Shown here: positions 5,471-39,749 of the stretch, piece after piece
Layout: every line of letters begins with the position of its first letter
How positions within the stretch are numbered: the first letter of the stretch is position 1
From: an uncultured Lachnospiraceae bacterium
GTDB lineage: Bacteria; Bacillota; Clostridia; Lachnospirales; Lachnospiraceae
Reading direction: 5' to 3'
Assembly (NCBI GenBank): GCA_947625775.1
Contig: CANQPM010000007.1
Span: forward strand, 124,001 to 188,000
DNA: 64,000 bases
Notes under the pieces: generated by a model
Databases searched by the model: none
The model's input: only the letters and a program-made list of their open reading frames with translations
What the model was told of the DNA's origin: nothing
Program-made: the position numbers and the translations under genes

Positions 5471-5695
5471 GAAGGCGGTCAGCAGTGGTGCGGTCGGACG
5501 AGGCGAAAACAGCGTATTTCCTAATACAATGGATATACGTGTTCTAATGAGGACGAGGTCGGCGCTAGTCGCCATCCGTGGCTCCGAGCGTCTCAATTTG
5601 CCGTCCGGGCAAATTGACCTCTGGTGTTCTTGCCATTGTATAAGGAAATACGCTGTTTCCGCCTATGCCCTCCCACACCACTGCTGACCACCTTC
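5471..5695 (-). repeat. Long foldback element, copy A (225 bp)
   Basis: Inverted arms at 5471-5531 and 5634-5695, both reading GGTCAGCAGTGGTG in the outer part and ending in CGTATTTCC-TATACAATG next to the centre. In between, on the minus strand, are hairpin I (CAATTTGCC, loop CGGA(C), GGCAAATTG) and hairpin II (GCCA, loop CGGA, TGGC inside an ACGCT/AGCG outer stem). The central 100 nt is nearly identical to copy B in reverse orientation. The outer arm sequence is particular to this copy yet self-complementary. Confidence 0.85.
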
Positions 5696-5822
5696 TGGGT
5701 ATTTTCTGCCTTGTGCCGCTGCTGGTGTTTTCTGGGTATTTTCTGCCCTGTACCGCTGTTGGCGCTTTCTGGGTATTTTCTGCCATGTATCACTACTGAC
5801 CGCCTTTTAGGTATTTTCTACA
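5693..5822. repeat. 37-bp tandem repeat abutting foldback copy A
   Basis: Units start at 5693, 5730, 5767 and 5804 (last one partial), each opening with TTCTGGGTATTTTCTGCC or a close variant and continuing with a diverged CTG-rich half. The first unit begins inside the last bases of the foldback arm, so the array seems to have grown from the element's edge. Reading frames through it are repetitive and not credible genes. Confidence 0.85.
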
Positions 5823-5986
5823 TTTTACTTTTTGTATTTTTACTTGTATATTGTTTTTCAAAAACTATTATCGATAATGAATATATTTGATATATATTAA
5901 ATAATCAAATATGATTGTACTTTTGTACAAAACACAGATTTTGTTCAAAATTCAAAAACATAAACGAAAAAACAAAAAGAGAGCAA

Positions 5987-6031
5987 ATGGTAGATACACA
6001 TAAAACAGTATCAACCAACAAGCTGAAATAA
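5987..6031 (+). CDS. Possible 14-aa leader peptide
   Basis: ATG at 5987 opens a 14-codon frame (MVDTHKTVSTNKLK) preceded by an AGAGAG purine stretch and followed after 25 nt by a strong hairpin-plus-T-run. The layout resembles a leader peptide and attenuator, but no plus-strand gene follows; the next genes are on the other strand. It may be what is left of an attenuated gene brought in and then lost. Low confidence that it is translated. Confidence 0.25.
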   Translation: MVDTHKTVSTNKLK

Positions 6032-6056
6032 GGTAGCTGCCGTACAGGGTGCAGAG

Positions 6057-6098
6057 AAAGACGAGTGGAAAGCGATTGCTTTTTGCCCGTCTTTTTCT
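6057..6098 (+). terminator. Intrinsic terminator / attenuator-like hairpin
   Basis: Nested stem AAAGACG ... AAAGC-GATT-GCTTT ... CGTCTTT followed by TTCTTT. Strong on the plus strand and weaker on the minus strand. Confidence 0.65.
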
Positions 6099-6152
6099 TT
6101 GCCTGTTACACAATAAACGCCCATTTTTGAGGGTAGACGTATAAAACCTTTA

Positions 6153-6350
6153 TTATATATTGTCTGAATTAAGATGAAGTCCCATTTTTGTAAATGCCAT
6201 ATATCCCTTTTCCGTAATTCTATATACTGTTTTTTTGCTTTCTTCTAATTCAATCCAACCATTCGAAATATAAAGCTTTAATAAAGCCGCACCTAAGTTT
6301 CCACCCAAATGGTCATAGCACTTTTTTCCGTAATGTTTTTTAGAATACAT
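6153..6350 (-). CDS. C-terminal fragment of an ArsR-like regulator (winged-helix protein)
   Basis: Small 65-aa protein from the ATG at 6350. That start is chosen because GAGGGAG, which forms the last codons of the upstream gene, sits 6 nt before it. KKCYDHLGGNLGAALLKLYI and the following YRITEKGYMAF resemble the C-terminal segment of longer ArsR-type regulators (typical form RTCYDHLAG, then GW and YRLT). The N-terminal helix-turn-helix of those proteins is absent. It is therefore either a stand-alone module or a truncated regulator. It overlaps the stop of the decarboxylase-like gene, so translation is probably coupled. Confidence 0.55.
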   Translation of the reverse strand: MYSKKHYGKKCYDHLGGNLGAALLKLYISNGWIELEESKKTVYRITEKGYMAFTKMGLHLNSDNI

Positions 6351-6351
6351 A

Positions 6352-6690
6352 TTATTCTCCCTCATCAAAAGCTAAGAGTGCAATTTCTAAAGCGTCAACT
6401 ACCGCAAGCCCTACTGCGGGGAGTCCAACTAAAACTGCACTTTTTATTTCCTCTTTTGTTGCTCCCATCTTTTTGGCAGACATTACATGAAACTTTAACC
6501 CACTAATCATTCTTGTTGCAGAAAGAACAGAGATATAAGCAAGCTCGTGCGTTTTTGGGTCTAAAACACTTTCTTGCGACAGTTTCATAGCCATACTCAT
6601 GTATGCTTTTCCAATGTTAGAAGTTTCAGTCATAAACATTTGAAATCCTCCAGAAGTTTTATCCATAGACTGTTGATAATTATTTTCCAT
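6352..6690 (-). CDS. Carboxymuconolactone decarboxylase family protein (AhpD-like fold)
   Basis: 112 aa from the ATG at 6690, which has GGAGGAG 7 nt upstream; an upstream in-frame start at 6726 lacks such a site. The core LAYISVLSATRMISGLKFHV followed by AKKMGATKEEI and GLPAVG is the CMD/AhpD helical signature. The CxxC redox pair of true AhpD is missing: the usual Cys positions hold Met and Ser. A peroxidase-linked role is therefore unlikely and the function is open. It forms a two-gene unit with the ArsR-like fragment; a PadR regulator lies upstream on the same strand. Confidence 0.8.
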   Translation of the reverse strand: MENNYQQSMDKTSGGFQMFMTETSNIGKAYMSMAMKLSQESVLDPKTHELAYISVLSATRMISGLKFHVMSAKKMGATKEEIKSAVLVGLPAVGLAVVDALEIALLAFDEGE

Positions 6691-6921
6691 TGTATTCTCC
6701 TCCATTAGATTATTCTGTAAAATCATTTGATGTGTTATCTATTTTCTTAATATCAACTATGTGGAATTTTTTACTTTAATCAAACATTCCTGCTTACATA
6801 ATTGACTGTTAATTTCCCGCTGCATGCGCTTTAAATTGACCCGCGGCTCGGCTACCTCTCATACAATCCAATCCAAAAAGGGGACAAACAAAACTGTTAA
6901 GCTACTTTTTGCAGTCATGCT

Positions 6922-7449
6922 CTAATCATTTCTATATTCTTTTTCAAAAGTATCTATCCACTCTAAAAGAGCATTATAGAGAAGCTGTTGCTGATCGAAA
7001 ATTGTTTTGCCGACAAGTGGCAAATACGAATAATATTCCTCCGCATATTCTTTGTTCGTTTGCTTAGAAATAGTAATACTGTTGCGTAATTGAGCAACTA
7101 AACCCATTGCCTTTTGTTTGTCCAACCTGTTAAGATTTGCAATCACCACATTAAAATCAAATAACAATGGCACTTGTTGATTTACAAAATCATTCATAAG
7201 CTGCTCAAAATAAGCGCGCCCCTTATCTGTAATCGAGTATATTGCCTTATCAGCAAATTTTTCACCTTTAACAACGTCGCTTTTCAGATACCCTTGATCC
7301 GCAAGTTTTATAACTTTTCGATAAATTGAGGGAACACTAATCTTTGTCCATCTCGAAAAATGATGATAATCTACATCCTTCTGAATGTCGTATGCGCTCT
7401 GGGATTTTTCTATTACCATGCCAAGTATGGCTAAATCTATTGATGACAT
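6922..7449 (-). CDS. PadR-family transcriptional regulator
   Basis: 175 aa. The ATG at 7449 is preferred over the upstream start at 7506 because GGAGGCG sits 6 nt before it and the protein then starts at the family's normal position (MSSIDLAILGMV). The N-terminal winged helix has YDIQKDV, SIYRKVIKLADQGYL and YSITDKGRAYFEQL, followed by a helical C-terminal PadR dimerisation domain. A perfect 9-1-9 palindrome lies 32-50 bp upstream of the start and is a likely autoregulatory operator. Its target may be the adjacent decarboxylase-like gene (inference from position only). Confidence 0.88.
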   Translation of the reverse strand: MSSIDLAILGMVIEKSQSAYDIQKDVDYHHFSRWTKISVPSIYRKVIKLADQGYLKSDVVKGEKFADKAIYSITDKGRAYFEQLMNDFVNQQVPLLFDFNVVIANLNRLDKQKAMGLVAQLRNSITISKQTNKEYAEEYYSYLPLVGKTIFDQQQLLYNALLEWIDTFEKEYRND

Positions 7450-7480
7450 ATCTACGCCTCCGTTTTTACTATCTTTAATA

Positions 7481-7499
7481 TTACTATTATTAATAGTAA
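7481..7499. promoter_or_regulatory. Operator-like palindrome of the PadR gene
   Basis: TTACTATTA-T-TAATAGTAA, a perfect 19-bp inverted repeat. PadR-type regulators commonly bind AT-rich palindromes containing an ACTAT...ATAGT pattern at their own promoters. Confidence 0.7.
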
Positions 7500-7515
7500 A
7501 AGTCAAGAGGAATGA

Positions 7516-7870
7516 TTAAAATAAAAACGGAAAGTACATTTGCAGATGTATATGCAAATACAGACTATCTATCCTCGCAGTCTTTGAAGCTTGTAAGGAT
7601 TTTTTCCCGGCTTTGACATTTACACACCTTTTCCGTTGCAAGAAGTAAAGAGAGGTTTCTGAAAAATTTTCCTCTGCCTTTTGCAAAATCGCCCTGCGCA
7701 GTGGCATAGATAGTGAGAGGAATTTCAGAGATTTTGGGACACTTTCCAACAAGCTAAAGCCTACAAAACGAAAAAACTTATGCTGTTTTATGAGCGCTGC
7801 CCTAAAATTACACTTGCTTTTTCTAAAAAACACAAAAATCCCCACCACAAAGACGGCACCCCAACACCCA
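7516..7870 (-). other. Gene-poor stretch with one doubtful ORF
   Basis: A 110-codon open frame at 7516-7848 has no recognisable domain, no Shine-Dalgarno site before its start and a composition heavy in Phe, Leu, Arg and Lys. It ends against the PadR promoter region. I regard it as probably non-coding and see nothing else convincing in this stretch. Confidence 0.3.
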
Positions 7871-8102
7871 GAAACCGCTTAGATATGTCTGCTGCGCATG
7901 CCTAGGCTGTGGAGGGGCGGATTTTCTTATACAATGATAAGTAACCAGAGGGCGATTTGCCCGGACGGCAAATCGAGGCGCTCGGAGCCACGGATGGCGA
8001 CTAGCGCCGACCTCGTCCTCATTAGAGTACCTATATTCATTGTATTAGAAAATCCGCCCCTCCACAGCCTCGCATGCAAAGCAGACATATCTAAGCGGTT
8101 TC
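7871..8102 (+). repeat. Long foldback element, copy B (232 bp)
   Basis: Arms at 7871-7936 and 8038-8102 are complementary over 65-66 bp with few mismatches (outer GAAACCGCTTAGATATGTCTG, inner GGATTTTCT-ATACAATG). The centre holds hairpin I CGATTTGCC-CGGA(C)-GGCAAATCG and hairpin II GGCGCT ... GCCA-CGGA-TGGC ... AGCGCC. Compared with copies A and C, hairpin I has an A:T to G:C change on both sides of the stem. It lies downstream of the cheY-like gene and contains no convincing ORF. Confidence 0.9.
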
Positions 8103-8135
8103 GTCCTGTTTTAAATCCCCTCCACACACATAACA

Positions 8136-8176
8136 AAAAGCCCCTCCAAACCGCTCCCCACGGTCCAGAGGGACTT
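8136..8176 (-). terminator. Terminator of the cheY-like gene
   Basis: On the minus strand AAGTCCCTC pairs with GGAGGGGCTT, followed by TTTTTG, 18 bp beyond the stop codon. Confidence 0.7.
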
Positions 8177-8193
8177 CCACATCTTCTCTAAAG

Positions 8194-8556
8194 CTATCTC
8201 GACATAACCTTATCAATCGCCGCAATCAACCTATCCTCCACAAACGGCTTGACAATAAAGTCCTTCGCCCCATATTGGATAGTCTGCGCCACCATAGCCT
8301 GCTGCCCCATAGCCGAACAGATAATGACCTTTGCCGTCGGCTGGATTTCCTTAATCCTCCTAAGCGCCTCGACGCCATTCATCTCTGGCATAGTAATGTC
8401 AAGCAGCACTACGTCTGGCTTAAATTCGATGAACTTCTTGACCGCCTCGACACCATTTTCAGCCTCAGCAATCACTGTATGTCCGTGCGGCTCAATCATC
8501 TTTTTAATAGTCATACGCATAAACGCCGCATCATCAACCACCAAAATCCTAGCCAT
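8194..8556 (-). CDS. CheY-like single-domain response regulator
   Basis: 120-aa receiver domain with no output domain. The acidic pocket is Asp8-Asp9, the phospho-acceptor Asp53 in DVVLLDITMP, with Ser81 and Lys103 in the usual positions. The GQQAMVAQTIQYGAKDFIVKPF region is typical of CheY or of chemotaxis-type adaptors in Clostridia. GGTGGAG lies upstream of the ATG. No kinase, chemotaxis or flagellar genes are adjacent, so it is an orphan here. It is followed by a good terminator and then foldback copy B. Confidence 0.9.
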   Translation of the reverse strand: MARILVVDDAAFMRMTIKKMIEPHGHTVIAEAENGVEAVKKFIEFKPDVVLLDITMPEMNGVEALRRIKEIQPTAKVIICSAMGQQAMVAQTIQYGAKDFIVKPFVEDRLIAAIDKVMSR

Positions 8557-8674
8557 AATCTACTCCACCTTTCGCCCTTTATTATAACGCCTCAATCGTA
8601 CAAACCTATTAACATAATAACATATTTTCCCAGCCAATGGAATAGAAAATTTTAAATTTCAAGTTAATTTCAAG

Positions 8675-10801
8675 CTAAATTCCACGCTTTTCGTTATATT
8701 TTGTGACAAGCGCGATAACAACGCTCCTCGGACACATAAGCAGCGTATCTTTCCCTGTCCACTTCGTAAGCTTGTGGTAGTCCGTATCCGCCGTGTGCTC
8801 AAACTCAGTGTTCATGACAATATGCCATTCCCTGCCAAGCGGGAGCTTTGGAAGCTGTATGTTCTGGTTTTCCCAAAACGTGTTTATGCCGATGTAAATA
8901 ATGTCGTCCTCTATGTTCCCCTCTGTACGCCCCGCAAACATAATGCCAATCATATGTGTATCGGGAGTGCAGACGCTGTTCCATGCCGTACCGTTATGGA
9001 TTGACACCTCAGGGAAGCCGCAGCCGCTGGGACCTGAGCGCCCGCGCAATATCGGATGCTTTTTGCGCAGCGCAATCATATACTTGCAAAATTCAAACAT
9101 CTCCTTATGCTGCTCTTTCCTGTTCCAGTCAAGCCATGAGATAATGTTGTCCTGACAGTAGGCGTTGTTGTTGCCAAACTGCGTGTTGCAGAACTCGTCG
9201 CCCGCAAGGAACATTGCCGAGCCGCGGCTGCACATCAGCACGGCAAACGCATTCTTGCGCATACGGTTTCTGAGCTTTAGAATCTCCTCATCATCAGTCT
9301 CGCCCTCGGCGCCGCAATTCCAACTGTTGTTGTCGTTTGCGCCGTCAGTGTTGTTCCAACCGTTCTTTTCATTGTGCTTTGTGTTGTAAGCGTACATATC
9401 ATAGAGCGTAAAACCGTCGTGACAGTTGAGAAAATTGACCGTGGCATTCTCACCGCGGTTTTCCTTGCCGTAAAGGTCAAGCGAGCCTGTGATGCGGTTT
9501 ATCGCCGCCTGCGCCATATTGTAATCGCCCTTCAAAAAGCAGCGCATATCGTCGCGGTATCTGCCGTTCCACTCCGACCACCTATTCCATGAGGGAAAAT
9601 TGCCCACCTGATAAAGTCCGCCCGCGTCCCATGCCTCGGCGATAAGCTTCACGCGCCCAAGAATAGGATCAAATGCAAGACTCTGCAGAAGCGGCGGTTT
9701 GCTCATAGGCGAGCCGTCCTCATTCCTTCCCATGATAGAGGCAAGGTCAAAGCGGAAGCCGTCAACCCTGTAATTAAGCACCCAGTAGCGCAGGCACTCC
9801 AAAATAAACTGCTGCACTATCGGATGATTACAGTTCATGACATTGCCGCAGCCGCTGAAATTGTAATATTTCCCATCAGGCGTGAGCATATAGTAGATAT
9901 TGTTGTCTATCCCCTTGAATGAAAAGCAAGGCCCCAGCTCATTACCCTCCGCCGTGTGGTTAAATACCACGTCAAGGATAACCTCTATGCCGCAGCTGTT
10001 TAGCTCGCGCACAAGCTCGCGCAGCTCTGTCCCCTCCTCATTGTATTCATGCTTTGATGCATAGCTCGTGTTTGGCGCAAAAAAGCACACAGGACTGTAA
10101 CCCCAGTAGTTTATCAGTCTTTCGCCGTCAACCACTCTCGTGTCCTCGAGCTCGTCAAACTCAAAAATCGGCATAAGCTCTACCGCGTTGACGCCAAGTT
10201 CCAGAAGATACGGGATTTTTTCCCTGATGCCGTCAAACGTACCCCTGTTTGCCACGCCAGAGGATTTATCCATCGTAAAGCCCCTTACGTGCATTTCGTA
10301 TATAATCATGTCCTTCGGCTCAAGGTTGGGGCGGTCAAAATTGCCCCAGTCGTCGCAGTCCTTTACGACACGCGCCTTGTAAAGATGCTTTTTGCTGCTC
10401 TTTTTCTCGCCCCATGTGCCCTGATCTGACACGGCTCTGGCATAGGGATCAAGAATATATTTGTTTTTATCAAAAATAAGTCCCTTCTTGGGGTTGTATT
10501 CTCCGTCAAACTGGTACGCGTACTCAAACTCGCTGGGATCAAGCCCCAGCACTACCATTGAATAGGTATTCCCTACGCGGAATTTTTCTGGAAACGGAAT
10601 GATGGCGTATGGTTCGTCCTCATACCTGTGAAACAGGCACAAATTACAGGATGTCGCTCCGTTTGAATGTATGGTGAAGCTCACACCGCCGTCAACAATC
10701 ATGGCTCCGTTTCTAAGGTACTTCCCTGGTCTTACCTTAAATCCGTTAATCACATCTGTCGCGGCATAGATGTCCTTATTGATGTAGGGTCTGCCAAACA
10801 T
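8675..10801 (-). CDS. glgX: Glycogen debranching enzyme (isoamylase / GlgX type)
   Basis: 708 aa, GH13 with an N-terminal CBM48-like domain (about 10-110). The barrel motifs are DVVFNHT (about 277-283), the nucleophile Asp352 in GFRFDLAS, acid/base Glu389 in AEAWD, and Asp462 in NCHDGF. It hydrolyses alpha-1,6 branch points, complementing GlgP and MalQ. The ATG at 10801 (MFGRPY) is preferred because AAGGGGG lies about 10 nt upstream; a TTG two codons earlier is too close to that site. It is monocistronic and separated from the kduI locus. GlgX and TreX-type isoamylases are not separable by eye. Confidence 0.93.
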   Translation of the reverse strand: MFGRPYINKDIYAATDVINGFKVRPGKYLRNGAMIVDGGVSFTIHSNGATSCNLCLFHRYEDEPYAIIPFPEKFRVGNTYSMVVLGLDPSEFEYAYQFDGEYNPKKGLIFDKNKYILDPYARAVSDQGTWGEKKSSKKHLYKARVVKDCDDWGNFDRPNLEPKDMIIYEMHVRGFTMDKSSGVANRGTFDGIREKIPYLLELGVNAVELMPIFEFDELEDTRVVDGERLINYWGYSPVCFFAPNTSYASKHEYNEEGTELRELVRELNSCGIEVILDVVFNHTAEGNELGPCFSFKGIDNNIYYMLTPDGKYYNFSGCGNVMNCNHPIVQQFILECLRYWVLNYRVDGFRFDLASIMGRNEDGSPMSKPPLLQSLAFDPILGRVKLIAEAWDAGGLYQVGNFPSWNRWSEWNGRYRDDMRCFLKGDYNMAQAAINRITGSLDLYGKENRGENATVNFLNCHDGFTLYDMYAYNTKHNEKNGWNNTDGANDNNSWNCGAEGETDDEEILKLRNRMRKNAFAVLMCSRGSAMFLAGDEFCNTQFGNNNAYCQDNIISWLDWNRKEQHKEMFEFCKYMIALRKKHPILRGRSGPSGCGFPEVSIHNGTAWNSVCTPDTHMIGIMFAGRTEGNIEDDIIYIGINTFWENQNIQLPKLPLGREWHIVMNTEFEHTADTDYHKLTKWTGKDTLLMCPRSVVIALVTKYNEKRGI

Positions 10802-10971
10802 ATTCAATTTTCCCCCTTATACAAATGCTGGTATATTCCTATATTACTTTAGTTTGTCAAACAATGCAACCTATTGTTTACTTTTTTTACAAAAACTGAC
10901 ACATATGCCCTGATGCATATGCCGCTTGTAAAACAAAAATATGCTTTTCGGGTTTTACATTGCCGTGAATT

Positions 10972-11005
10972 AAAAACAGGGCATCCACTTCCATGAACAC
11001 CCTGT
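10972..11005 (-). terminator. Terminator after kduI
   Basis: ACAGGG / CCCTGT stem with inner partial pairing and, on the minus strand, a trailing TTTTTAA. It starts about 30 bp beyond the kduI stop. Confidence 0.7.
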
Positions 11006-11033
11006 ATGTTTGCTGTCTGAATACAAGCTCGGA

Positions 11034-11894
11034 TTACATCAAATCCTGCATTGCCACGCCGTCCATATCGTCAAAGTCCTGATTTTCGCCTACCATGCCC
11101 CATATGAAGGTGTATGCGCGGCTGCCGCTGCCTGAGTGGATTGACCAGCTCGGAGAGATTACCGCCTGCTCATTTCTCATGACAATATGCCTTGTCTCCT
11201 GCGGCTCGCCCATATAGTGCATTACAAACGCGTCCTCTGGCATATCAAAATACAGATATACCTCCATGCGCCTGTCGTGGGTGTGGCACGGCATTGTGTT
11301 CCATACGCTGCCCGGCTTTAACGCTGTCATGCCCATGACAAGCTGGCAGCTTTCTACCTGTCCCGGCAATATGTATTTGTTGATTACCCTGTGGTTTGCG
11401 TCCTCAAGGCATCCAAGCTCTACCTTGTTCTCGTCCTTGATGATTACCACATCATCGCTTGGCTCGCCTTCGGGCTTGATAAGCTTTGTGGGGTACGCTT
11501 TATGCGCGGGTGCGCTGTTTAAGTAAAATTTAGCGGGATTTTGGGGATCGGCAGACTCGAATGTGATGTCCTTTGAGCCCATGCCGATGTACATGCCCTC
11601 CTTATGACCTACCTCATACTTTTTGCCGTCGATTGTGATTGTGCCTGCAGGTCCTATGTTTATGACGCCAAGCTCGCGCCTCTGGCAGAAGTATTCTGCT
11701 CTTAGCTCATCTCCCGCCGTGAGCTTAATCGGCTCGACAGGCACTGCAGAGCCTGTGATAATGCGGTCAATGTGGCTATATACAAGCTTGATTTCCCCTT
11801 TTTTAAACAAATCATCGATCAGAAATTCCTCTCTTAATCTCTGAGTAGTATAATTTTTAACATCTTTTGGTGACGCCGCTGTGCGTAACTCCAT
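11034..11894 (-). CDS. kduI: 5-dehydro-4-deoxy-D-glucuronate isomerase
   Basis: KduI, 286 aa, which converts the keto-uronate from unsaturated pectin or glycosaminoglycan disaccharides into 3-deoxy-D-glycero-2,5-hexodiulosonate. Diagnostic segments are AEYFCQRRELG, GKEGMYIGMGSKD-like (HKEGMYIGMG here) and the zinc-site motif MPCHTHDRRMEVYLYF with a later His in WSIHSG. The ATG at 11894 is chosen because AGGAAGG is correctly spaced for it, while the TTG three codons earlier abuts that site. It is transcribed divergently from lacI-uxaC and has an operator overlapping its -10 box. KduD is not in the window. Confidence 0.93.
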   Translation of the reverse strand: MELRTAASPKDVKNYTTQRLREEFLIDDLFKKGEIKLVYSHIDRIITGSAVPVEPIKLTAGDELRAEYFCQRRELGVINIGPAGTITIDGKKYEVGHKEGMYIGMGSKDITFESADPQNPAKFYLNSAPAHKAYPTKLIKPEGEPSDDVVIIKDENKVELGCLEDANHRVINKYILPGQVESCQLVMGMTALKPGSVWNTMPCHTHDRRMEVYLYFDMPEDAFVMHYMGEPQETRHIVMRNEQAVISPSWSIHSGSGSRAYTFIWGMVGENQDFDDMDGVAMQDLM

Positions 11895-11945
11895 AAATAT
11901 CAACCTTCCTTTTGCTTTATATTAAAACTTTATTAAATTAAATTT

Positions 11946-11959
11946 TGTAAGCACTTACA
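11946..11959. promoter_or_regulatory. cre/LacI-type operator at the kduI promoter
   Basis: TGTAAGCACTTACA, palindromic but for the two central bases. It abuts the kduI -10 hexamer on the downstream side and so would block initiation. It matches the CcpA cre consensus with one mismatch and could equally be the site of the adjacent LacI-family protein. Confidence 0.75.
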
Positions 11960-11987
11960 TTTTATCCTATTGCGGCGGCTTAGTCAA
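11959..11987 (-). promoter_or_regulatory. kduI promoter
   Basis: On the minus strand TTGACT (11982-11987), a 17-bp spacer and TAAAAT (11959-11964). A strong sigma-A match. Confidence 0.75.
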
Positions 11988-12051
11988 TAGAAATTACTCC
12001 AAATCGGCATAAATATTCTATAAACTGTGACAAATATTATGATTTTTATGC

Positions 12052-12080
12052 TTGATTTTAGCGCGTATTCATAGTACAAT
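12052..12080 (+). promoter_or_regulatory. Promoter of lacI-uxaC
   Basis: TTGATT (12052-12057), a 17-bp spacer and TACAAT (12075-12080). A second operator-like site begins 12 bp further on. Confidence 0.65.
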
Positions 12081-12092
12081 TTACTTGATTTA

Positions 12093-12106
12093 TGGTAGTG
12101 CTTACA
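12093..12106. promoter_or_regulatory. Second operator in the kduI/lacI intergenic region
   Basis: TGGTAGTGCTTACA: one half is identical to the kduI operator (GTGCTTACA) and the other degenerate. It lies between the lacI promoter -10 and its start codon. Confidence 0.55.
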
Positions 12107-12153
12107 TAGCTTTTTACATTACTATATTTTCAGAGCAGGGAGCGGGCTTTTCT

Positions 12154-15925: not shown

Positions 15926-16147
15926 TTGGGGAAGCTCCTTTCGTAGGTGGAGTTTTTAGTTATAGTTTTTGCCTTTTTTTGTTGATTATGCGGACGGCAG
16001 GATGGGTGCTATAATACTATTGGATGCTTTAGACGGCAACGGGGACTTTTTTGCGGTTTCACGAGGGATGTGAGGATTTTATGCCTATTAGGTGACTCTG
16101 GATGTCAGTAATAACTTTTTCGGGTTCTGGGTATATGAGATATAAAT

Positions 16148-17524
16148 TTAGTGGTTTCGTGGTTTCCAGCGGCCGCTTAGGTAGTGTATGGTGAACATTA
16201 CGAAAAGCAGCATATTGTGGGCAATCATGCATGCCCAAGCGGAGATTAAGCCGTAGCCAAGGATTTGGGTGCAGATGAAGGTGCCTGTAATTCTGGCGCA
16301 CCACATTCCGAGGACGTTGTATATGAATGGCGGGACTGTGTTGCCTACTCCTTGCATAATTCCCTCGATTACTATAGGTACTCCGTAAAATGGTTCCGAT
16401 ATGGCGACCATTCTGAGTACGGATGTGCCGAGGGTGATTACCTGGGTATCCTTTGAAAACAGGTGCATTAGCTGCGGTGCAAAGGCGAAGAGCATGCCGC
16501 CTGATATTACCATAAGACCTACTTCCAGCGGAAGTATGCTGCGGGCAAGACCGTTTAGCCTGTCCTCGTTTTTGGCGCCCCATGCATTTCCCGCCAGTGT
16601 TGCCGCGGCGGTCTGCATGCCCCAGCCTGGTATATAAAATGCGGATTCGACTGTGTTGGCTATGGTATGCGCCGCTGTCGCCGTCTCACCGAGTGAGTTA
16701 ATCATTGAGGCGAAAAATACATAGCCCAGAGACGTGGCAAAGCGCTGAAGCATATTTGGGAACGCTACACGCATGCAGGGCGCGAGTACATGCGGATTGG
16801 GTGTAAAGCTCTGACCGTGCGGCGATATTTCTTTATGCCGCCATAGCATATATGTAATGGCTATTCCGCCGAAGGTGTATGCGACGGCGCTTGCTATTGC
16901 GGCGCCTTCTATGCCTTTTCCCGCGCCGAAAATATTTATGCTCATACCGCCTATTGTGAGTGTGCGCGTCGGATATATCAGGAAGAAATTCAGCACTATG
17001 TTTATCAGATTTACGATAATTCCAACCTTCATAGGCGTTTTCGTGTCGCCTGCCGCCCGAAGGAGCGTGCCGAAAATAATGCTTGCTGTCCTAAACAGCA
17101 TTGGAAGATACAGTATCAGGAAATACCGTGACGCCATTGCGCGTATGTTTGTGTCAACGCGCATCCAGACGGGTATTTTTCCGCTCAGCCCTGTAGTCAC
17201 AAGAGTAAAGAAAAGCCCTGCGATAACCACGACAAGCACTGCCTGTCCTGACGCTTTCCTTGCCCTGTCTATATCACGCGCGCCGATCGCCTGTGCGATA
17301 TAGGCAAGGAAGCCCACGCCAATTGCCGACAGCGTGCTGCCAATCAGCCAGTTGACTGTGCTTGTCGCGCCTACTGCCGCCATCGCCTGAGTGCCAAGCG
17401 AGCCGACCATAGCCGTGTCAATATACTGCACTGCGGTCTGCATAAGCTGCTCGAGCATTGTCGGTCCCGCAAGCATTAAAATTTCCTTATACATAGCCAG
17501 TCGGCTTTTCTTTAAATCAGGCAT
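16148..17524 (-). CDS. MATE-family efflux transporter
   Basis: About 458 aa with 12 predicted hydrophobic segments in two homologous halves (GPTMLEQLMQTAVQYIDTAMVG near the start; FPNMLQRFATSLGYVFFASMIN at the start of the second half). Such proteins export cationic drugs or metabolites using H+ or Na+ gradients. The start is uncertain: ATG at 17524 gives the family-typical N-terminus, a GTG at 17530 is better placed relative to GGACGGAG, and the longest frame begins at 17569. A long frame in the opposite register (16059-16583) is a shadow. The substrate is unknown. Confidence 0.92.
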   Translation of the reverse strand: MPDLKKSRLAMYKEILMLAGPTMLEQLMQTAVQYIDTAMVGSLGTQAMAAVGATSTVNWLIGSTLSAIGVGFLAYIAQAIGARDIDRARKASGQAVLVVVIAGLFFTLVTTGLSGKIPVWMRVDTNIRAMASRYFLILYLPMLFRTASIIFGTLLRAAGDTKTPMKVGIIVNLINIVLNFFLIYPTRTLTIGGMSINIFGAGKGIEGAAIASAVAYTFGGIAITYMLWRHKEISPHGQSFTPNPHVLAPCMRVAFPNMLQRFATSLGYVFFASMINSLGETATAAHTIANTVESAFYIPGWGMQTAAATLAGNAWGAKNEDRLNGLARSILPLEVGLMVISGGMLFAFAPQLMHLFSKDTQVITLGTSVLRMVAISEPFYGVPIVIEGIMQGVGNTVPPFIYNVLGMWCARITGTFICTQILGYGLISAWACMIAHNMLLFVMFTIHYLSGRWKPRNH

Positions 17525-20000: not shown

Positions 20001-20228
20001 GAAGTCAGCCGACTATGTCCGCGCAAGTGCCTTGGCGCGAATGGCGTATTTTCTTATGTAATGCTCAACACCTTAGAGGACAATTTGCCCGGACGGCAAA
20101 TTGAGGCGCACGGAGCCACGGATGGCGACTTGCGCCGTGCCTCGTCGCCCGAAAACACCTACAAGCATTACATTAGAAAATACGCCATTCACGCCACCGC
20201 ACGCGCACGGACATAGTCGGCTGACTTC
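20001..20228 (+). repeat. Long foldback element, copy C (228 bp)
   Basis: Arms of exactly 63 bp each (20001-20063 and 20166-20228), outermost GAAGTCAGCCGACTATGTCCG and innermost CGTATTTTCT-ATGTAATG. The centre has hairpin I CAATTTGCC-CGGA(C)-GGCAAATTG and hairpin II GGCGCA ... GCCA-CGGA-TGGC ... TGCGCC; the closing pair T:A of copy B is A:T here. The right edge is 25 bp from the stop codon of the MBOAT gene. Similarity to copy D continues about 12 bp past the right arm. Confidence 0.92.
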
Positions 20229-30479: not shown

Positions 30480-30483
30480 TTTT

Positions 30484-30512: not shown

Positions 30513-30639
30513 TAATTGTTATTTTATAAACAATTTTTAAACAATTTTCGCCGTATTCATTTTTTAATGATGGAAAACACGCCATGCGGGGCTTTCTATT
30601 GTCATGAATTAAAATATATGCGGATATATTGCAAAAAAA

Positions 30640-30737
30640 GGGACTGCCACATTAAGGATATAAGTGCATGATATAGTATCATATAATTGAAACATCATAC
30701 TATATCTTGTATGCTTAATCCTTATTGCGGCAGTCCC
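30640..30737. repeat. About 100-bp hairpin repeat, copy 2 of 3
   Basis: Arms GGGACTGCCACATTAAGGAT and the complement ending CCTTATTGCGGCAGTCCC, with complementarity continuing through ATGATATAGTATCAT-like inner segments. Read toward the minus strand it is followed by TTTTTTT, so it can act as terminator for the LysM gene (stop at 30861). Internal sequence aligns better with copy 3 in plus orientation, but the near-symmetry makes orientation uncertain. Confidence 0.8.
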
Positions 30738-30860
30738 TAAATTCAGACTGCGGCTTCTCCAGCCGCGTATCATTTCTGACAGCTTCAGAAAAACGTCATC
30801 TATTGCCTACTCCCCTCTTTTGTGCATGGAAGTGTTCAGTTTTGGGAATTTTGTTTTGGT

Positions 30861-32047: not shown

Positions 32048-32156
32048 TATAAATTTTACTTTCCTCATTAAAAATTTTAAAAAATTTTAATTTTAAAACC
32101 GTTGAAAATTTCAAATTTCCATACAGGCAGATAAAATAGACGAAGGCTTTACACAA

Positions 32157-32200
32157 AAAGCGGATATATGCTATTACACATAAGGCATTATATCCGCTTT
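32157..32200. terminator. Terminator between LysM promoter and aminopeptidase gene
   Basis: AAAGCGGATATA pairs with TATATCCGCTTT around a CATAAGG-type loop; T-rich on both sides. It serves the minus-strand aminopeptidase gene (stop at 32255). Confidence 0.8.
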
Positions 32201-32254
32201 ATTTTTAATAAATCAGTCTGTTATTATCGAGCCAATCCCGCTTTTCCAAGCTTT

Positions 32255-33649: not shown

Positions 33650-33696
33650 AATTTTATTTCCCCCATTTCTATATAAGTATGGCAATATATTATAAA

Positions 33697-33712
33697 GGAG
33701 CCATGGCGCTCC
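33697..33712 (-). terminator. Short hairpin after the epimerase gene
   Basis: GGAGC-GCCATG-GCTCC followed on the minus strand by TTTATAAT, 13 bp past the stop. A weak intrinsic terminator. Confidence 0.45.
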
Positions 33713-33724
33713 CCATAACCTGTA

Positions 33725-34795
33725 TTATCCGTAAAACTCCCTGTACCACTCCGCGAATCTGCGCAGACCGTCACGCAGGTTTGTCGAGGGCTTAAATCCA
33801 AAGTCGCGTTCGAGCTCGCTCACGTCAGCATAAGTAATCTCCACGTCGCCTGGCTGCATGCCTACAAGCTCCTTATGCGCCTCAAAATCATAGTCCTGCG
33901 GCAGCACCTTTGCGCGTTTCAGCTCGTCCTGCAGTATCTCCACAAAATCAAGGAGATTTTCAGGCTGATTGTTGCCTATATTATAGACCTTGTATTTGAC
34001 GCCGTCGTCATTTGGCAGCGGCGAACGCTGCATAACCGCCGTAATGCCTGTCACTATATCATCAATATAAGTGAAATCCCGCTTACAGTTCCCGTAATTG
34101 AAAATCTTTATCGTCTCATTTTTTACAAGCTTGTTTGTAAAGCCGAAATACGCCATATCGGGGCGTCCCGCAGGACCATAGACCGTGAAAAAGCGGAGCC
34201 CTGTTGACGGTATGCCGTAAAGCTTTGAATACGCGTGCGCCAGAAGCTCGTTTGATTTTTTTGTCGCGGCGTAGAGCGACACGGGATTGTCAACCTTGTC
34301 ATCTGTGGAATACGGGATTTTTTTGTTGCTGCCGTAGACTGACGACGAGCTTGCGTATACGAGGTGCTCCACCCCCGCCACGCCGCCGTCATAGCTGTGG
34401 CGGCAGGCTTCAAGTATATTGTAAAAGCCGATTAGGTTTGCCTCAATATACGCGTCAGGGTTTTCTATGCTGTAACGCACTCCCGCCTGCGCCGCGAGGT
34501 TTACGACTATCTGAGGTCTGTATTCTGAAAATATTCTGTTTATCTCAGGCTTATCCGCGATATTTCCCTTGATAAACTCAAAGCTGCCACTCACGGTCTT
34601 TTCAAGCCCGTAAATCTGCTTTAGGCGAAATTCCTTTAATGACACGTCATAGTAATCGTTCATATTGTCGATGCCAATGACATGTACATTGTCAAAGCTC
34701 TTGAAGAGCGAAAGGGCAAGGTTTGATCCTATAAAACCTGACACTCCTGTCACAAATATTGTTTTTCCATTGATGCTTACGTTTTTTTCTAACAT
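33725..34795 (-). CDS. NAD-dependent epimerase, UDP-glucuronate 4-epimerase-like
   Basis: 356 aa from ATG 34795 (GGGAG upstream). Extended SDR: nucleotide-binding TGVSGFIGSNLA near 16-27, GIDNMNDYYDVSLKEFRL (typical of CapI/GAE-type UDP-glucuronate 4-epimerases), active-site Ser region YASSSSVYG and YAATKKS with catalytic Tyr/Lys, then RFFTVYGPAGRPDMA. It would supply UDP-galacturonate for surface glycans. It lies alone on the minus strand, without other glycan genes next to it. Confidence 0.9.
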   Translation of the reverse strand: MLEKNVSINGKTIFVTGVSGFIGSNLALSLFKSFDNVHVIGIDNMNDYYDVSLKEFRLKQIYGLEKTVSGSFEFIKGNIADKPEINRIFSEYRPQIVVNLAAQAGVRYSIENPDAYIEANLIGFYNILEACRHSYDGGVAGVEHLVYASSSSVYGSNKKIPYSTDDKVDNPVSLYAATKKSNELLAHAYSKLYGIPSTGLRFFTVYGPAGRPDMAYFGFTNKLVKNETIKIFNYGNCKRDFTYIDDIVTGITAVMQRSPLPNDDGVKYKVYNIGNNQPENLLDFVEILQDELKRAKVLPQDYDFEAHKELVGMQPGDVEITYADVSELERDFGFKPSTNLRDGLRRFAEWYREFYG

Positions 34796-34874
34796 ATTAA
34801 TCTCCCATTCTTGATGCACCCGCAAATTTGCGCCCTAATCACAAATTTGCAGGTGAAAAATTTATTTTGCCGTT

Positions 34875-35522
34875 TTACCGAAAATAAATCCCCGCAAGCT
34901 TCATATCCGCATCAAACGTTATAGTATATGAAACCGTCACGTTTTCGTATGACGCCTTTATCTGCGCCACGGCGTATTTTTCGCCCTTTTGCTCCGCCTG
35001 TGAAAACGCTTTTTCCTCTATCCCTTTGAATGCGCCAAAGTTGCCGTTGAACTGGGCTTTTGCATAGGAGAGCTTTGCGGCGTTTAATGTTTCCTGCATT
35101 TCATCATTCATGCACTCAACTATACTGTCATAATCGCCGCTGTTAAAAAAGTCGATTATCCTCAGTGCCTCGTCTTCCACCTGCGCGGCTTCAAAAATGC
35201 CGCCGTCTTCTATCGCGCTCCAGCTTGGAAGATTTATCCTCGCTATAACTATTATAACCGCAATTATGGCGGCAACTATCAGCGCGCGCCTTATATTTTT
35301 TTCACGCTTTGCCTTTTTTCTCTCCGCCCTGTCAAAACGGTCATTGTAAAGATTTGCGTAATCCCACGGGATTCCAAGCCCCCCCAAAACCTTGTCGAGC
35401 GGCTCTCCTTTGTCGGTCTTTTCGTTTATTTGCGCCAAAAGCTGCGCCTTGACCTCCTTCTTTTTTGACGAGCTGCATTTTAAGAGCTTACCAACCTCAC
35501 TGACATACCTCTGCGCAGTCAT
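34875..35522 (-). CDS. Membrane protein with HAAS-like N-terminus and DUF3887 domain
   Basis: 215 aa from ATG 35522 (GAGGT upstream). Residues 1-70 are helical and resemble the HAAS/DUF1700 signalling-associated domain (LLAQINEKTDKGEPLDKVLGGLGIP). One transmembrane helix lies at about 88-105 (ALIVAAIIAVIIVIARI), and the remainder outside fits DUF3887 (IIDFFNSGDYDSIVECMNDEM ... FSQAEQKGEKYAV). No PadR gene is adjacent, although HAAS proteins often have one. Function unknown. Confidence 0.7.
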   Translation of the reverse strand: MTAQRYVSEVGKLLKCSSSKKKEVKAQLLAQINEKTDKGEPLDKVLGGLGIPWDYANLYNDRFDRAERKKAKREKNIRRALIVAAIIAVIIVIARINLPSWSAIEDGGIFEAAQVEDEALRIIDFFNSGDYDSIVECMNDEMQETLNAAKLSYAKAQFNGNFGAFKGIEEKAFSQAEQKGEKYAVAQIKASYENVTVSYTITFDADMKLAGIYFR

Positions 35523-35664
35523 TTTTACCTCACATTCCGCCGTTTTCAAGCTGTTTTTACAGTTAATTGCCTATCTAAAACATTATACTTTATTTTCTGT
35601 AACATTTCCATAATTTTCCGCATATAATAAAATAATTAAAGCCTCCGTGGGATCTGTTTTGATT

Positions 35665-36354
35665 ATGAACAGCAGAGTTTTCAGGATTTTATATGCGCTG
35701 TGCCTTGTCCTTTCGCTGTCTGCGCTCGGCAGGCAGGCGCGGATTTATGCGCATAACTGCGCTGTCATAAATGACGGACAAATTTCTGATGCGGGCGAGC
35801 TAAAGCGCATAGCAATCACATTTGACGACGGACCGCACCCTGTCTACACAAAAAGGCTGCTTGACGGATTAAAGGAGCGCAATGTCAAGGCGACATTTTT
35901 TGTCACGGGCGAACATGCGGAGCAATGCCCTGACATTATTAAGCGCATGCACGATGAAGGCCATCTTATCGGCAACCACACCTACAGCCATATACAGCTT
36001 ACCTCGTCAAACCGTGAAAAATTCAGCAGTGAGCTGTTAAAAACAAGCGAAATCATAAAAAGCATTACGGGCGAGGAGACGCAGTACGTAAGACCGCCCT
36101 ACGGTTTGTGGGATAAGTCGCTCGAAGCGCAGCTCAATATGTTTCCTGTCCTGTGGAATGTCGATCCTCTTGACTGGTGTACGTCAAACGCGTCAAAGGT
36201 GGCGCGCTCCGTCATACGCGACGCGGAGGAAAATGACATTATCCTGATGCACGATTATTACGCCTCCTCTGTAAGCGCCGCGCTTATGATTATTGACGAG
36301 CTTACAAAGGAGGGCTATTCGTTTGTGACTGTAGATGAAATTCTTTTTGATTAA
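35665..36354 (+). CDS. Polysaccharide deacetylase (NodB domain), exported
   Basis: 229 aa from ATG 35665; a GTG at 35647 is also possible, and neither has a strong ribosome site. An N-terminal hydrophobic segment (about 3-22) acts as signal or anchor. CE4 motifs: ITFDDGPHP, HLIGNHTYSH, RPPYGLWD, NVDPLDW and ILMHDYY, giving the Asp-His-His metal triad and catalytic base. Likely N-deacetylates peptidoglycan or another wall glycan. The size fits PdaA/PdaB-type sporulation or housekeeping deacetylases; which one is not decidable here. Confidence 0.9.
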   Translation: MNSRVFRILYALCLVLSLSALGRQARIYAHNCAVINDGQISDAGELKRIAITFDDGPHPVYTKRLLDGLKERNVKATFFVTGEHAEQCPDIIKRMHDEGHLIGNHTYSHIQLTSSNREKFSSELLKTSEIIKSITGEETQYVRPPYGLWDKSLEAQLNMFPVLWNVDPLDWCTSNASKVARSVIRDAEENDIILMHDYYASSVSAALMIIDELTKEGYSFVTVDEILFD

Positions 36355-36362
36355 ACCGCCCT

Positions 36363-36536
36363 CTAGACAAAACGGTTTCCAGCGCTGTCATAGTGATAGC
36401 CTATGCCTTCAAGCGCTGATATTATGGCTTCTTTGTCCTCGTCCATATCCTCGCACAGCGCGTCAAGACTTGGATAAAAGTCTCGCAGCTTTAAATTTAT
36501 GAAGCTTAAAAGCATTGCAGGATCCTTTGGGAGCAT
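36363..36536 (-). CDS. DUF4250 small protein
   Basis: 57-aa protein (MLPKDPAMLLSFINLKLRDFY ...). The ATG at 36536 has GGAGG eight nt upstream. The pattern MLPKDP-MLLS---LRD-Y-SLD-LC-D is that of DUF4250, a short family found in Firmicutes and Bacteroidetes. It ends 8 bp from the convergent deacetylase stop and begins 17 bp after the holA stop, so it is probably cotranscribed with holA. Function unknown. Confidence 0.8.
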   Translation of the reverse strand: MLPKDPAMLLSFINLKLRDFYPSLDALCEDMDEDKEAIISALEGIGYHYDSAGNRFV

Positions 36537-36552
36537 AGTGCCGCCTCCTTTT

Positions 36553-37536
36553 TTATTTTGAACTTAGTCCGACTATTATAAGCTCCACGCTCATAATGTC
36601 CGACATTTTTCCCGTCTTTACGCTTTCCTCCGCCTCAACGCACTTTTTCAGCGCGCTTTTAAGCTGCGGCAGCTCGAAGCTTGCCGCCTGAGGAATATAT
36701 TTTTTTTTGAGGTAATATGCGTTCAGCCCTGTCTGCGCCGCGATATTTGCCTCAGAATATCCTTTGCCGCGCATCTCCTTTACCTGCAGGAGCATATTGA
36801 ACTGGCGGGCAATCAGGGAAAGTATTTTCATAGGCGCTTCCTTCAGGGCTATCAAATCATAATACATGTCAAGCGCCTGCTTTTGATCCTTTCTTGCGAC
36901 CGCCTCTACCATGTCAAAAATTTTGTTCTGAACCTGTACAATGCACAAATCCTCCACGTCCTTCGCCGTTATGCCCTCCTCGTAATATTTATAGCATATA
37001 AGCTTTTCGACCTCGCGCCTTATGTTTTCCATATTCGTGCCTGTCCTGTCGAGCAGAAGGTCAAGGGCGTCTGACGTTATCTGTTTGTTCTCCTTTTTGA
37101 GCATGCCCAGCACCCATTTTTTGAGCGCCGCCTCGTCCTGCGCCCCGCACAGGGCGGCATACCCGTTTGAGGCCACAGCCTTGTACAGCCTGCCGCGCTT
37201 GTCCGCCTCCTCCTCCACAAATATAATGTATGTGGTATCGGGAATATTTTTTACAAGCTCAATCACTCTGTCGTCTGCCGCCTTAAACCAGCCGCTGTCC
37301 TCAATAATGATAACCCTGCGCTCCGCAAAAAAAGGCATTGCGCCCGCCATATCTAAAACCTCGTTTATGTCTATATCTTTTCCCGAATATACGGTGCAGT
37401 TCATCGTGTCGCCCTCCGCCGCCAAAGCGTCTTTAAGCTTATCGCGGTACTGTTTCCTAAGGTAAGCCTCCTCACCGTAGAGAAGGTAAACATGGCTGAA
37501 TTCGCCGCTTTTTATGTCCTGCGTTATGCGCTTCAT
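36553..37536 (-). CDS. holA: DNA polymerase III subunit delta
   Basis: 327-aa clamp-loader delta subunit. YLLYGEEAYLRKQYRDKL at the N-terminus, then the AAA-like domain (MAGAMPFFAERRVIIIEDSGWF), the TNMENIRREVEKLICY region, and a C-terminal helical collar (ALKEAPMKILSLIARQFNMLLQVKEMRGKG). It opens the beta clamp with tau and delta'. The length is standard (about 330-345). Only a weakly spaced AAAGGA lies upstream of the ATG. It is followed by the DUF4250 gene. Confidence 0.93.
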   Translation of the reverse strand: MKRITQDIKSGEFSHVYLLYGEEAYLRKQYRDKLKDALAAEGDTMNCTVYSGKDIDINEVLDMAGAMPFFAERRVIIIEDSGWFKAADDRVIELVKNIPDTTYIIFVEEEADKRGRLYKAVASNGYAALCGAQDEAALKKWVLGMLKKENKQITSDALDLLLDRTGTNMENIRREVEKLICYKYYEEGITAKDVEDLCIVQVQNKIFDMVEAVARKDQKQALDMYYDLIALKEAPMKILSLIARQFNMLLQVKEMRGKGYSEANIAAQTGLNAYYLKKKYIPQAASFELPQLKSALKKCVEAEESVKTGKMSDIMSVELIIVGLSSK

Positions 37537-37605
37537 TTTATGTGTTTATCCTTTCAAAAATTATGTATTAGTATTATATCATCTTAGCAGCAAAAATACA
37601 ATTTT

Positions 37606-39168
37606 TTATATGGCAAACGGATTTTCAGGCGAAAAATCCACCACCTTAGTCGCAATCCTCTCGCAAAACCTCTCATCATGCTCTACGACAAGCATTGTCG
37701 GCTTATACGCAAGTATCAGCTCCTCTAACTGTATTCTTGAAAACACGTCAATATAATTAAGCGGCTCGTCCCAAATATACAGATGCGCGGGCGTAAGAAG
37801 ACTCGCGGCTATCAGCACTTTCTTTTTCTGTCCCTCGGAAAAATCAGCCATATCCTTTGAAAACTGCACTCTCTCAAAATCAAGCTGGCGGAGCAGCGCA
37901 CAGAAAAGGCTCTCATCAAACCCTTTTTCCCTGCAAAAATCCGCGACACTTCCCTTTAAAAAAGATGTATCCTGATTTATATACGATATGATAATCCCCG
38001 ACGCTATACCAAGCTCTCCCGACTGAAAAAAGCCTCCGCCAAAGCCACTCAAATCGCTTTCACCCCTGCTGCCCGCGACAATCATTTTGATAAGGCTGGA
38101 CTTGCCGCACCCATTACTCCCGCGCAAAAATACACGATCGCCCTGATTAATCCCAAAACTAAGCCCATCAAACACAGGCGGCTTGCCGCGCTCATACCCC
38201 ATACCGTAATCCCGCGCCAAAACCAGCGTGTCCTTATGATATTTAAGCGGAAAAAGCTTTAAATCCACTGGCGTTTCTATGTCGCGCAAAAGCCCTTCTT
38301 TCTCACTTATTTCCCTGTCAAGACGCTCCTCTATCTGCTTTACGCGGCTTTGAAGCTTTTTGGTTTTTGCTCCAATATACGCCCTTGCGCCTTTGCCCCT
38401 GTCGTGCTCCTTCACTGGATCAAAACCAATCTTTGAACGCTCGCTTTTGTCCGCCCATTGCCTTGTCTGCTCCGAAGCGCGCTTTAATTTGCCTATCTCT
38501 CGCCTGTGCCTGTCATTCTCCGCCCGCGCAAACGCATCGCCTTTCTGCTTATTTTCCCACCAGCTTGAAAAATTCCCGCTCTGCACCTCAATAGTACAGC
38601 GGTTCAGCGCTAAAATATGATCCGCACACGCATCAAGCAGATCCCTGTCATGCGACACCAGTATGAAACCCCTCTTTGTGCGCAGATATTTTTTGACCGT
38701 ATCACGCGCCGCCATATCCAAATGGTTCGTCGGCTCATCTATCAGCAGGAAATCATTCTCACCCGAAAACAGTACGGCAAGCATCACCTTCGTGCGCTCC
38801 CCATAGCTTAATGTCCCAAACGGGCGGTACAAAAGCTCTGCATCAGCGTCAAGCCCGTCCAATTCGCATACCACGCGCCAAAGCTCGCACCCAGCCTTTA
38901 AATCCTCAACAAAATCGGCAGCGCACATGCGCATCATATCATCCGTTATCCGATATGGAAAATAGTCAAAATCCGTTCCCGCGCTTATTTTCCCCACATA
39001 TTCGTATTCACCCATCAGAAGCTTTAGAAACGTCGTCTTACCTTTCCCATTCCTTCCGATAAATCCAAGACGCCAATCAGTATCTATCGAAAACGATACA
39101 TCTTCAAAAACATTGTCCGCACTGCCCTCATAATAAAATGTCAGATTACTAACGCTTATCTGCGCCAT
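37606..39168 (-). CDS. ABC-F family ATPase (Lsa/Vga-like ribosome protection type)
   Basis: 520 aa from ATG 39168 (GGAGGGG upstream). Two ABC cassettes without membrane segments: Walker A GRNGKGKTT and GSNGCGKSS, signatures LSYGERTK and FSEGQKKK, Walker B LLIDEPTNHLD and LYIWDEPLNYID, joined by a charged linker (about 190-320). N-terminal ISVSNLTFYYEGSADNVFEDV and DTDWRLGFIGRNG resemble Lsa/Vga-type antibiotic-resistance ABC-F proteins more than housekeeping EttA/Uup. A hairpin with a 14-codon frame lies just upstream, as in drug-inducible ABC-F genes. The drug spectrum is not predictable. Confidence 0.88.
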   Translation of the reverse strand: MAQISVSNLTFYYEGSADNVFEDVSFSIDTDWRLGFIGRNGKGKTTFLKLLMGEYEYVGKISAGTDFDYFPYRITDDMMRMCAADFVEDLKAGCELWRVVCELDGLDADAELLYRPFGTLSYGERTKVMLAVLFSGENDFLLIDEPTNHLDMAARDTVKKYLRTKRGFILVSHDRDLLDACADHILALNRCTIEVQSGNFSSWWENKQKGDAFARAENDRHRREIGKLKRASEQTRQWADKSERSKIGFDPVKEHDRGKGARAYIGAKTKKLQSRVKQIEERLDREISEKEGLLRDIETPVDLKLFPLKYHKDTLVLARDYGMGYERGKPPVFDGLSFGINQGDRVFLRGSNGCGKSSLIKMIVAGSRGESDLSGFGGGFFQSGELGIASGIIISYINQDTSFLKGSVADFCREKGFDESLFCALLRQLDFERVQFSKDMADFSEGQKKKVLIAASLLTPAHLYIWDEPLNYIDVFSRIQLEELILAYKPTMLVVEHDERFCERIATKVVDFSPENPFAI

Positions 39169-39203
39169 AAGCCCCTCCATTCCCGCCGCCAAACCAGCCG
39201 CCG

Positions 39204-39253
39204 ACAGCCTAAAGAGCGCATTTTGGGCGCAAAAAAGAAGGCTGTGCGGACAT
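39204..39253 (-). promoter_or_regulatory. Candidate attenuator and 14-aa leader peptide of the ABC-F gene
   Basis: A 14-codon frame at 39209-39253 (MSAQPSFLRPKCAL, stop TAG) lies 40 bp before the ABC-F start. It runs through a nested hairpin (ACAGCC/GGCTGT at 39204-39245, inner GCGC/GCGC). No good Shine-Dalgarno site precedes the ATG and no clear T-run terminator follows, so the regulatory reading is tentative. Confidence 0.35.
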
Positions 39254-39518
39254 AATCAGCTTTTGGCAGCGTATCATAAAAAGCATTGTCCGATTTATAA
39301 CCAAACCGAACAACACACATTTAAACAAGCTGCAATTCTTCAAAAGCAGATTATCTTCGCATCTTAGCCTCCATAAATAATAATTTAACAAATTCAATTA
39401 TGTCTAAATTTTACATACCCCACGAACATTTGTCAAGCATTTTCATTACCTAATTCTAATCTCATTCCGTTCTTATTCCCTCCATTTAAACTAAACATTC
39501 CAACCTGCCAAAACCAAA

Positions 39519-39749
39519 GAAGTCAGCCGTCTATGTCCGTGCAAGCGCCTTGGTGCGGGCGGCGTATTTTCTTATGTAATGCCCAACACCCCAGGCGGAA
39601 ATTTGCACGGATGCAAATTTCAGTCGCGACTGCGGCACGGACGCCGCACTCGCGACGGCGCCGACCGCCCGAAAACACCTATACTGCATTACATTAGAAA
39701 ATCCGCTGCCCACACCACAGCGCGCGCACGGACATAGACGGCTGACTTC
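39519..39749 (+). repeat. Long foldback element, copy D (231 bp)
   Basis: 63-bp arms at 39519-39581 and 39687-39749, sharing GAAGTCAGCCG-CTATGTCCG with copy C. The centre is the most diverged copy, yet all pairings are kept: hairpin I is AAATTTGCA-CGGA-TGCAAATTT and hairpin II has outer stem GTCGCGA/TCGCGAC and inner GCGGC/GCCGC around A-CGGA-C. The right edge is 27 bp from the stop of the DUF5688 gene. Confidence 0.92.

Follow-up and report, generated by a model that had tools for sequence, protein, structure and literature searches.

The window, the whole 64,000-nt stretch of Lachnospiraceae DNA that was analysed, contains four foldback elements (A to D), which were recovered, by reading of the sequence and by an inverted-repeat search, at the positions and with the arms, hairpins and matched stem differences that a preliminary description had given them. 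Element A occupies 5471..5695 on the minus strand, with inverted arms at 5471-5493/5673-5695 and 5501-5532/5633-5664, hairpin I at 5594..5616 (loop CGGAC) and hairpin II at 5561..5592 (loop ACGGAT), both on the minus strand. The other three elements and their hairpins lie on the plus strand. Element B, at 7871..8102, has its arms at 7871-7901/8072-8102 and 7904-7937/8037-8070, and its hairpins I and II at 7953..7975 (CGGAC) and 7977..8008 (ACGGAT), respectively. Element C (20001..20228) is bounded by arms of 65 nt that are 89% complementary (20001-20065/20164-20228), with hairpin I at 20081..20103 (CGGAC) and hairpin II at 20105..20136 (ACGGAT), and element D (39519..39749) by 64-nt arms of 88% complementarity (39519-39582/39686-39749), with hairpin I at 39598..39621 (ACGGAT) and hairpin II at 39623..39656 (ACGGAC); all the hairpins were placed from the sequence together with the predicted structure. 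The stem variants of hairpin I had been read correctly, namely CAATTTGCC/GGCAAATTG in A and C, CGATTTGCC/GGCAAATCG in B and AAATTTGCA/TGCAAATTT in D, as had the closing pair of hairpin II, T:A in B and A:T in C. No common theme was seen among the genes beside A-D, which include those for LacI, CMD, PadR, a response regulator, alpha-amylase/CBM48, flavin reductase, MBOAT, ABC and DUF5688, one of the ten neighbours being without a match.

All four elements belong to TwoAYGGAY (Rfam RF01731), whose gathering score is 43 bits; their cmscan scores range from 77.4 to 104.5 bits and their E-values from 1.5e-17 to 2.1e-11. The Rfam core covers positions 5501-5664 in A (77.4 bits), 7904-8070 in B (85.8 bits), 20032-20197 in C (78.6 bits) and 39550-39718 in D (104.5 bits), in each case with outer arms added to it, and these are exactly the four matches above gathering scores that the window has in Rfam 15. 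The earlier statement that no named family fits was wrong, the family having been catalogued in 2010 and all four copies scoring above its gathering score. The source genome (3.75 Mb in 42 contigs) contains 16 TwoAYGGAY matches, every one of them above the cut-off. Thus, elements A-D are not a chance pattern but are shown to be copies of a known RNA family, found here in a host from the expected group. In the parts of the literature at hand, the 2010 publication of TwoAYGGAY describes it as a probable RNA that is probably neither cis-regulatory nor a riboswitch, with the human gut, gamma-Proteobacteria and Clostridiales as its sources (Weinberg et al., PMC2864571); later work improved its structure, the helix gaining further covarying pairs (PMC11701678, PMC7657543), and one paper proposed TwoAYGGAY, from motif matches, as a CsrA-binding sRNA (PMC4333381). 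It has stood as an RNA without an assigned function since 2010, and no experiment on it appeared in the titles and abstracts found on TwoAYGGAY, on CsrA/FliW/flagellin and on Lachnospiraceae palindromes. The window copies share with the Rfam family the two hairpins with AYGGAY-type loops within a longer stem, but differ from it in that the outer arm is shown to lengthen the stem of the window clade by about 30 bp past the Rfam model on each side, in variable sequence and with mismatches that have no strand preference.

The search with the exact inner-arm pattern, the centre being left free, returned 61 stretches from the named genome collection, all 61 with Lachnospiraceae in their titles and with isolate names referring to rabbit and deer gut, plus one other MAG; the same pattern had no match in the viral contigs. 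Among the relatives sampled, the family was found in 19 of 116 genomes (18 above the cut-off), and in an even sample of the order in 34 of 392 genomes, which represent 20 of 173 genera (32 genomes above the Rfam cut-off); the two samples overlap partly, and the stricter filters of the large searches lose weak matches.

The proposal that selection acts on structure, as in an ncRNA, was supported by a covariation set of 23 sequences, comprising the 16 of the source genome and one each from seven other genomes. In this set, 28 of the 35 predicted pairs vary on both sides, which was equalled by none of 500 shuffles, and 87.3% of the pairing cells are paired versus a shuffle mean of 64.2% and versus at most 46.5% with the partner slid; these numbers are generous, as the shuffles ignore relatedness (the slid registers keep it) and the alignment being scored is also the one that yielded the predicted structure. 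The covariance model built from this alignment gave 120 matches of at least 44 bits among 100 loci, besides 18 weaker opposite-strand matches that the palindrome produces at the same sites; the working set of 117 unique elements was obtained by dropping the latter and removing three identical copies.

The loop CGGA had been described as constant, and this holds for the GGA of both hairpins, which is kept in 98 of the 117 unique elements in hairpin I and in 112 in hairpin II, the usual form being rather a hexaloop, C-ANGGAN-G. The longer motif A[CT]GGA is kept in 63/117 and 101/117, respectively, and the closing pair C-G in 115/117 for each hairpin, while hairpin I of A, B and C, with its 5-nt loop CGGAC, is short of the full ANGGAN. 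Since the 117-element set was found by a model that rewards the loop, the loop count was repeated on 63 centres retrieved with a search pattern that specified the arms alone, more than half of them from one genome. Of these 63 arms-only centres, 62 contain two or more hairpins that are capped by GGA and have stems of at least 3 bp, the commonest capped loops being CATGGATG, CATGGACG, CACGGACG and CACGGATG. On the reverse strands of the same centres two GGA hairpins were never found (0/63), 57 having none and six having one. A hexaloop ANGGAX set directly on a stem is described as the high-affinity ligand of Csr/Rsm proteins, and ACGGAU forms the loop of the RsmE-hcnA complex whose structure has been solved (PMC4005645).

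A working RNA transcribed as the GGA strand would be expected to allow G-U pairs in its stems and not A-C. In hairpin I, 16 G-U cells were counted, which correspond to 13 events that differ in clade, column or type, versus no A-C at all; hairpin II shows no strand asymmetry (five G-U versus four A-C events), and the two hairpins together give 18 G-U versus four A-C events (p 0.004). The strand signal rests on hairpin I. Cells that are neither a standard pair nor G-U nor A-C number 67 in hairpin I and 61 in hairpin II and are partly due to alignment error. Isolated mismatches in the outer arms, counted after trimming, have no strand preference in the window clade (19 G-T versus 29 A-C) or in the deer-gut genome (29 versus 31), and lean to G-T in the other clades (90 versus 60, p 0.018). 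The extension of arms by gapped alignment was used for the window clade only, as it overruns in distant clades, and an untrimmed count (G-T 137, A-C 267; 78 elements) was dropped because the alignments had overrun the arms into A/C-rich flank. The self-complementarity of the outer arms that had been pointed out is present, but as evidence for an RNA it is weaker than hairpin I, being without a strand-specific signal in the window clade, where the extended arms could equally be explained as palindromes kept at the DNA level. Among orthologous copies (four loci, five comparisons), 28 changed pairs comprise three double compensations, three one-sided changes to Watson-Crick pairs, three G-U, eight A-C and 11 otherwise broken pairs; with A-C exceeding G-U and only three double compensations in 28, the recent record does not speak for strand-specific selection on the stem as a whole.

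Such self-complementary outer arms without strand preference agree with a non-autonomous mobile palindrome of the MITE or REPIN-like kind, whose structure would be kept for DNA transposition, as do the 16 copies in the source genome and the 54 model matches in 37 loci of the deer-gut genome, where the loci have no common 200-mer and composite back-to-back units recur. REP/REPIN sequences are dispersed intergenic palindromes, as the TwoAYGGAY elements are. However, such an origin is regarded as improbable, the asymmetry of hairpin I favouring an RNA and each of the copies A-D having counterparts at the same locus in related species (A and B in relative G020, C in G017 and G020, and D in G027). 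The Y1 (IS200/REP-type) transposases, the transposase family examined, showed no association with the elements, being present in 18 of the 34 family-positive genomes versus 233 of 392 overall, and this absent co-occurrence rules against mobilization by a Y1/RAYT transposase; the elements differ from REP/REPIN with RAYT in this respect and in occupying loci common to several species. Carriage by plasmids or phages was likewise rejected, as the plasmid and phage sequences queried with element B gave no match and the exact pattern was absent from the viral contigs. The folded single-stranded transposition intermediate that had been considered at the outset is, on these grounds, not supported. At 15960..16150 (minus strand), the site that is occupied by a TwoAYGGAY element in the G017 orthologue (L115 3943-4214), the window has the boundary motifs, recognised by eye, around an unrelated and weakly folded interior. 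The comparison of this site with G017, and by eye with the G020 and G027 stretches, gave no clean empty site, the boundary motifs being present both in the window and in G017, and no target-site duplication was found at this one occupied/unoccupied orthologous site or demonstrated for the family. Spread through duplication and rearrangement is plausible.

The distribution of the family was compared with that of CsrA (PF02599), a bacterial regulator of motility genes. In the order sample, CsrA is encoded by each of the 34 family-positive genomes, compared with 225 among all 392 (hypergeometric p 2e-9), and the count by genus gives 20/20 versus 109/173 (p 5e-5), this genus count being the sole correction for phylogeny. 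In the relatives sample, CsrA was found in 19/19 family-positive genomes versus 87/116 overall, and in 8/8 versus 50/74 genera (p 0.04); the source genome has seven csrA genes. The presence of CsrA is not sufficient for the family, 191 of the 225 CsrA genomes being without it. Flagellin is an equal correlate, encoded in 34/34 family-positive genomes versus 242/392 overall, so that motility and CsrA are inseparable as correlates in the order sample. All seven flagellin leaders examined in the source genome carry ACAAGGAGGT just 5' of the start codon, which resembles a CsrA site.

We consider, with moderate confidence, that the TwoAYGGAY elements are most likely RNAs that bind CsrA, their many copies titrating the protein off mRNA targets. 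The long base-paired stem would set the two hairpins side by side, each of them ending in a GGA loop that would be gripped by the CsrA dimer, and the numerous copies would jointly draw CsrA away from such mRNAs as those of flagellin. The hypothesis of CsrA binding and titration is already in print, and what is new here is the evidence from the strand, from the loops of the arms-only centres and from co-occurrence. Two properties of the CsrA-sequestering sRNAs are found in TwoAYGGAY, namely GGA in hairpin loops and CsrA in the host. The CsrB, CsrC and RsmX/Y/Z RNAs of Gammaproteobacteria likewise bear GGA in hairpin loops as CsrA ligands, and sequestration has been proposed for them (PMC4333381, PMC4005645); TwoAYGGAY, in contrast, has only two sites per RNA and many loci, belongs to another phylum, and has no promoter or terminator signal seen around it. 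An own sigma-70 promoter was rejected as a candidate, the best upstream matches being at chance level in three element groups (7 versus 7.6, 3 versus 3.8 and 17 versus 14 expected from mononucleotide shuffles), and the downstream T-runs were not in excess, so there is no intrinsic terminator signal. In the source at hand, the mechanism of CsrA-sequestering sRNAs is so far tied to Gammaproteobacteria (PMC4333381). The binding of CsrA by TwoAYGGAY would place the motility and flagellin production of gut bacteria under a layer of control by RNA, and would account for the constancy of the loops amid near-total variation elsewhere in the element.

That neither a promoter nor a terminator of its own was seen also agrees with a structured RNA other than a CsrA sponge, such as a 3'-end or antisense element of stability or processing, the GGA loops of which might bind another protein. 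The neighbouring genes are in line with this, as the gene on the 3' side is oriented towards the element in 86 of 136 cases; the window clade contributes 34 of 42 (in 26 of these 34 the gene ends at most 100 nt from the core) and the source genome alone 12 of 15 (p 0.035), with the qualification that these counts rest on simple ORF calling and include orthologous loci. However, no such bias is seen in the other clades (52/94, p 0.35), the loop form is the one stated to be the high-affinity Csr/Rsm ligand (PMC4005645), and CsrA is present in every family-positive genome sampled, so such an RNA is held to be rather unlikely. Long ORFs were called across the element in 11 of 137 cases and were taken for miscalls. 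The very stable predicted stem, its intergenic position and, in the window clade, its frequent location just 3' of a stop codon might suggest a bidirectional terminator or attenuator of transcription between genes, which is nevertheless very improbable, as only 6 of the 44 elements of the window clade have a T-run of at least five within 110 nt 3' of the core, versus 15 of 44 with A-runs, and the constant GGA loops would be left unexplained.

In several related genomes the copies occur in divergent pairs, and among the loci searched 25 pairs within 1.2 kb are divergent, with their 5' ends facing, none is convergent and two are tandem. The divergent pairs occur in seven genomes and the convergent ones in none of these loci; 14 of the 25 belong to the deer-gut genome and resemble one repeated composite unit, and the G017 pair appears to be orthologous to one of those in G020, so that the independent divergent cases are fewer than 25. 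CsrA binding as such leaves the divergent pairing unexplained. In the portions of the TwoAYGGAY literature available, no description was found of the divergent pairing, of the extended palindromic arms or of the copy number per genome. Returning to the RNAs as probable ligands of CsrA, a wider picture is advanced tentatively, as possible but doubtful: the elements may serve motile Lachnospirales as a system for titrating CsrA, in which dispersed RNAs, each with two CsrA-binding sites and duplicated into back-to-back divergent pairs with outward transcription from a short spacer between them, would buffer CsrA, including in genomes with csrA before each of several flagellin genes. The composite unit of the deer-gut genome has a look-alike in another genome, G008, where its two members are distinguishable, and the cores of A and B, about 2.2 kb apart here with other genes between them, stand back to back in G020, 291 nt apart.

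In several copies of TwoAYGGAY (Rfam RF01731), the RNA family to which the four window elements A-D belong, a motif resembling AACACCCAG...CGTCCTCATTAGAAC was seen by eye to border the central hairpins and also the outer stem, as if, judging from the sequence, one boundary were nested inside the other. Directly upstream of element A, at 5690-5850 of the window, lie imperfect tandem repeats similar to the 5' arm of A (CAGAAAATACCCAGAA...), and in the fetched locus L159 the spacer of the A/B pair is filled by other repeats. The window contains, besides A-D, hairpins with the common end type GGGCTGYCGCAATAAG / CTTATTGCGACAGCCC at 1555-1651 and 42798-42905, and at 30639-30738, where this end type is only partial.

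A repeated unit of the deer-gut genome JAGAQJ consists of two different TwoAYGGAY types paired back to back, with a core-to-core distance of about 100-190 nt (loci L063, L066, L069, L073, L075-L078, L087, L088, L091, L098, L104 and L117).

As to the genes for CsrA, the protein that these RNAs are proposed to bind, a flagellin gene is located just downstream of csrA in all seven cases in the window genome (L187-L191; G000 contigs C9, C8, C14 and C19). One of the seven loci has the usual order flgL-fliW-csrA-flagellin, with the names assigned by eye, while an ORF of 196-237 aa adjoins csrA at the remaining six, the three of these ORFs that were scanned all being tyrosine recombinases of the Phage_integrase family (PF00589). 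Three such csrA cassettes follow one another in this genome at a spacing of about 4.66 kb.
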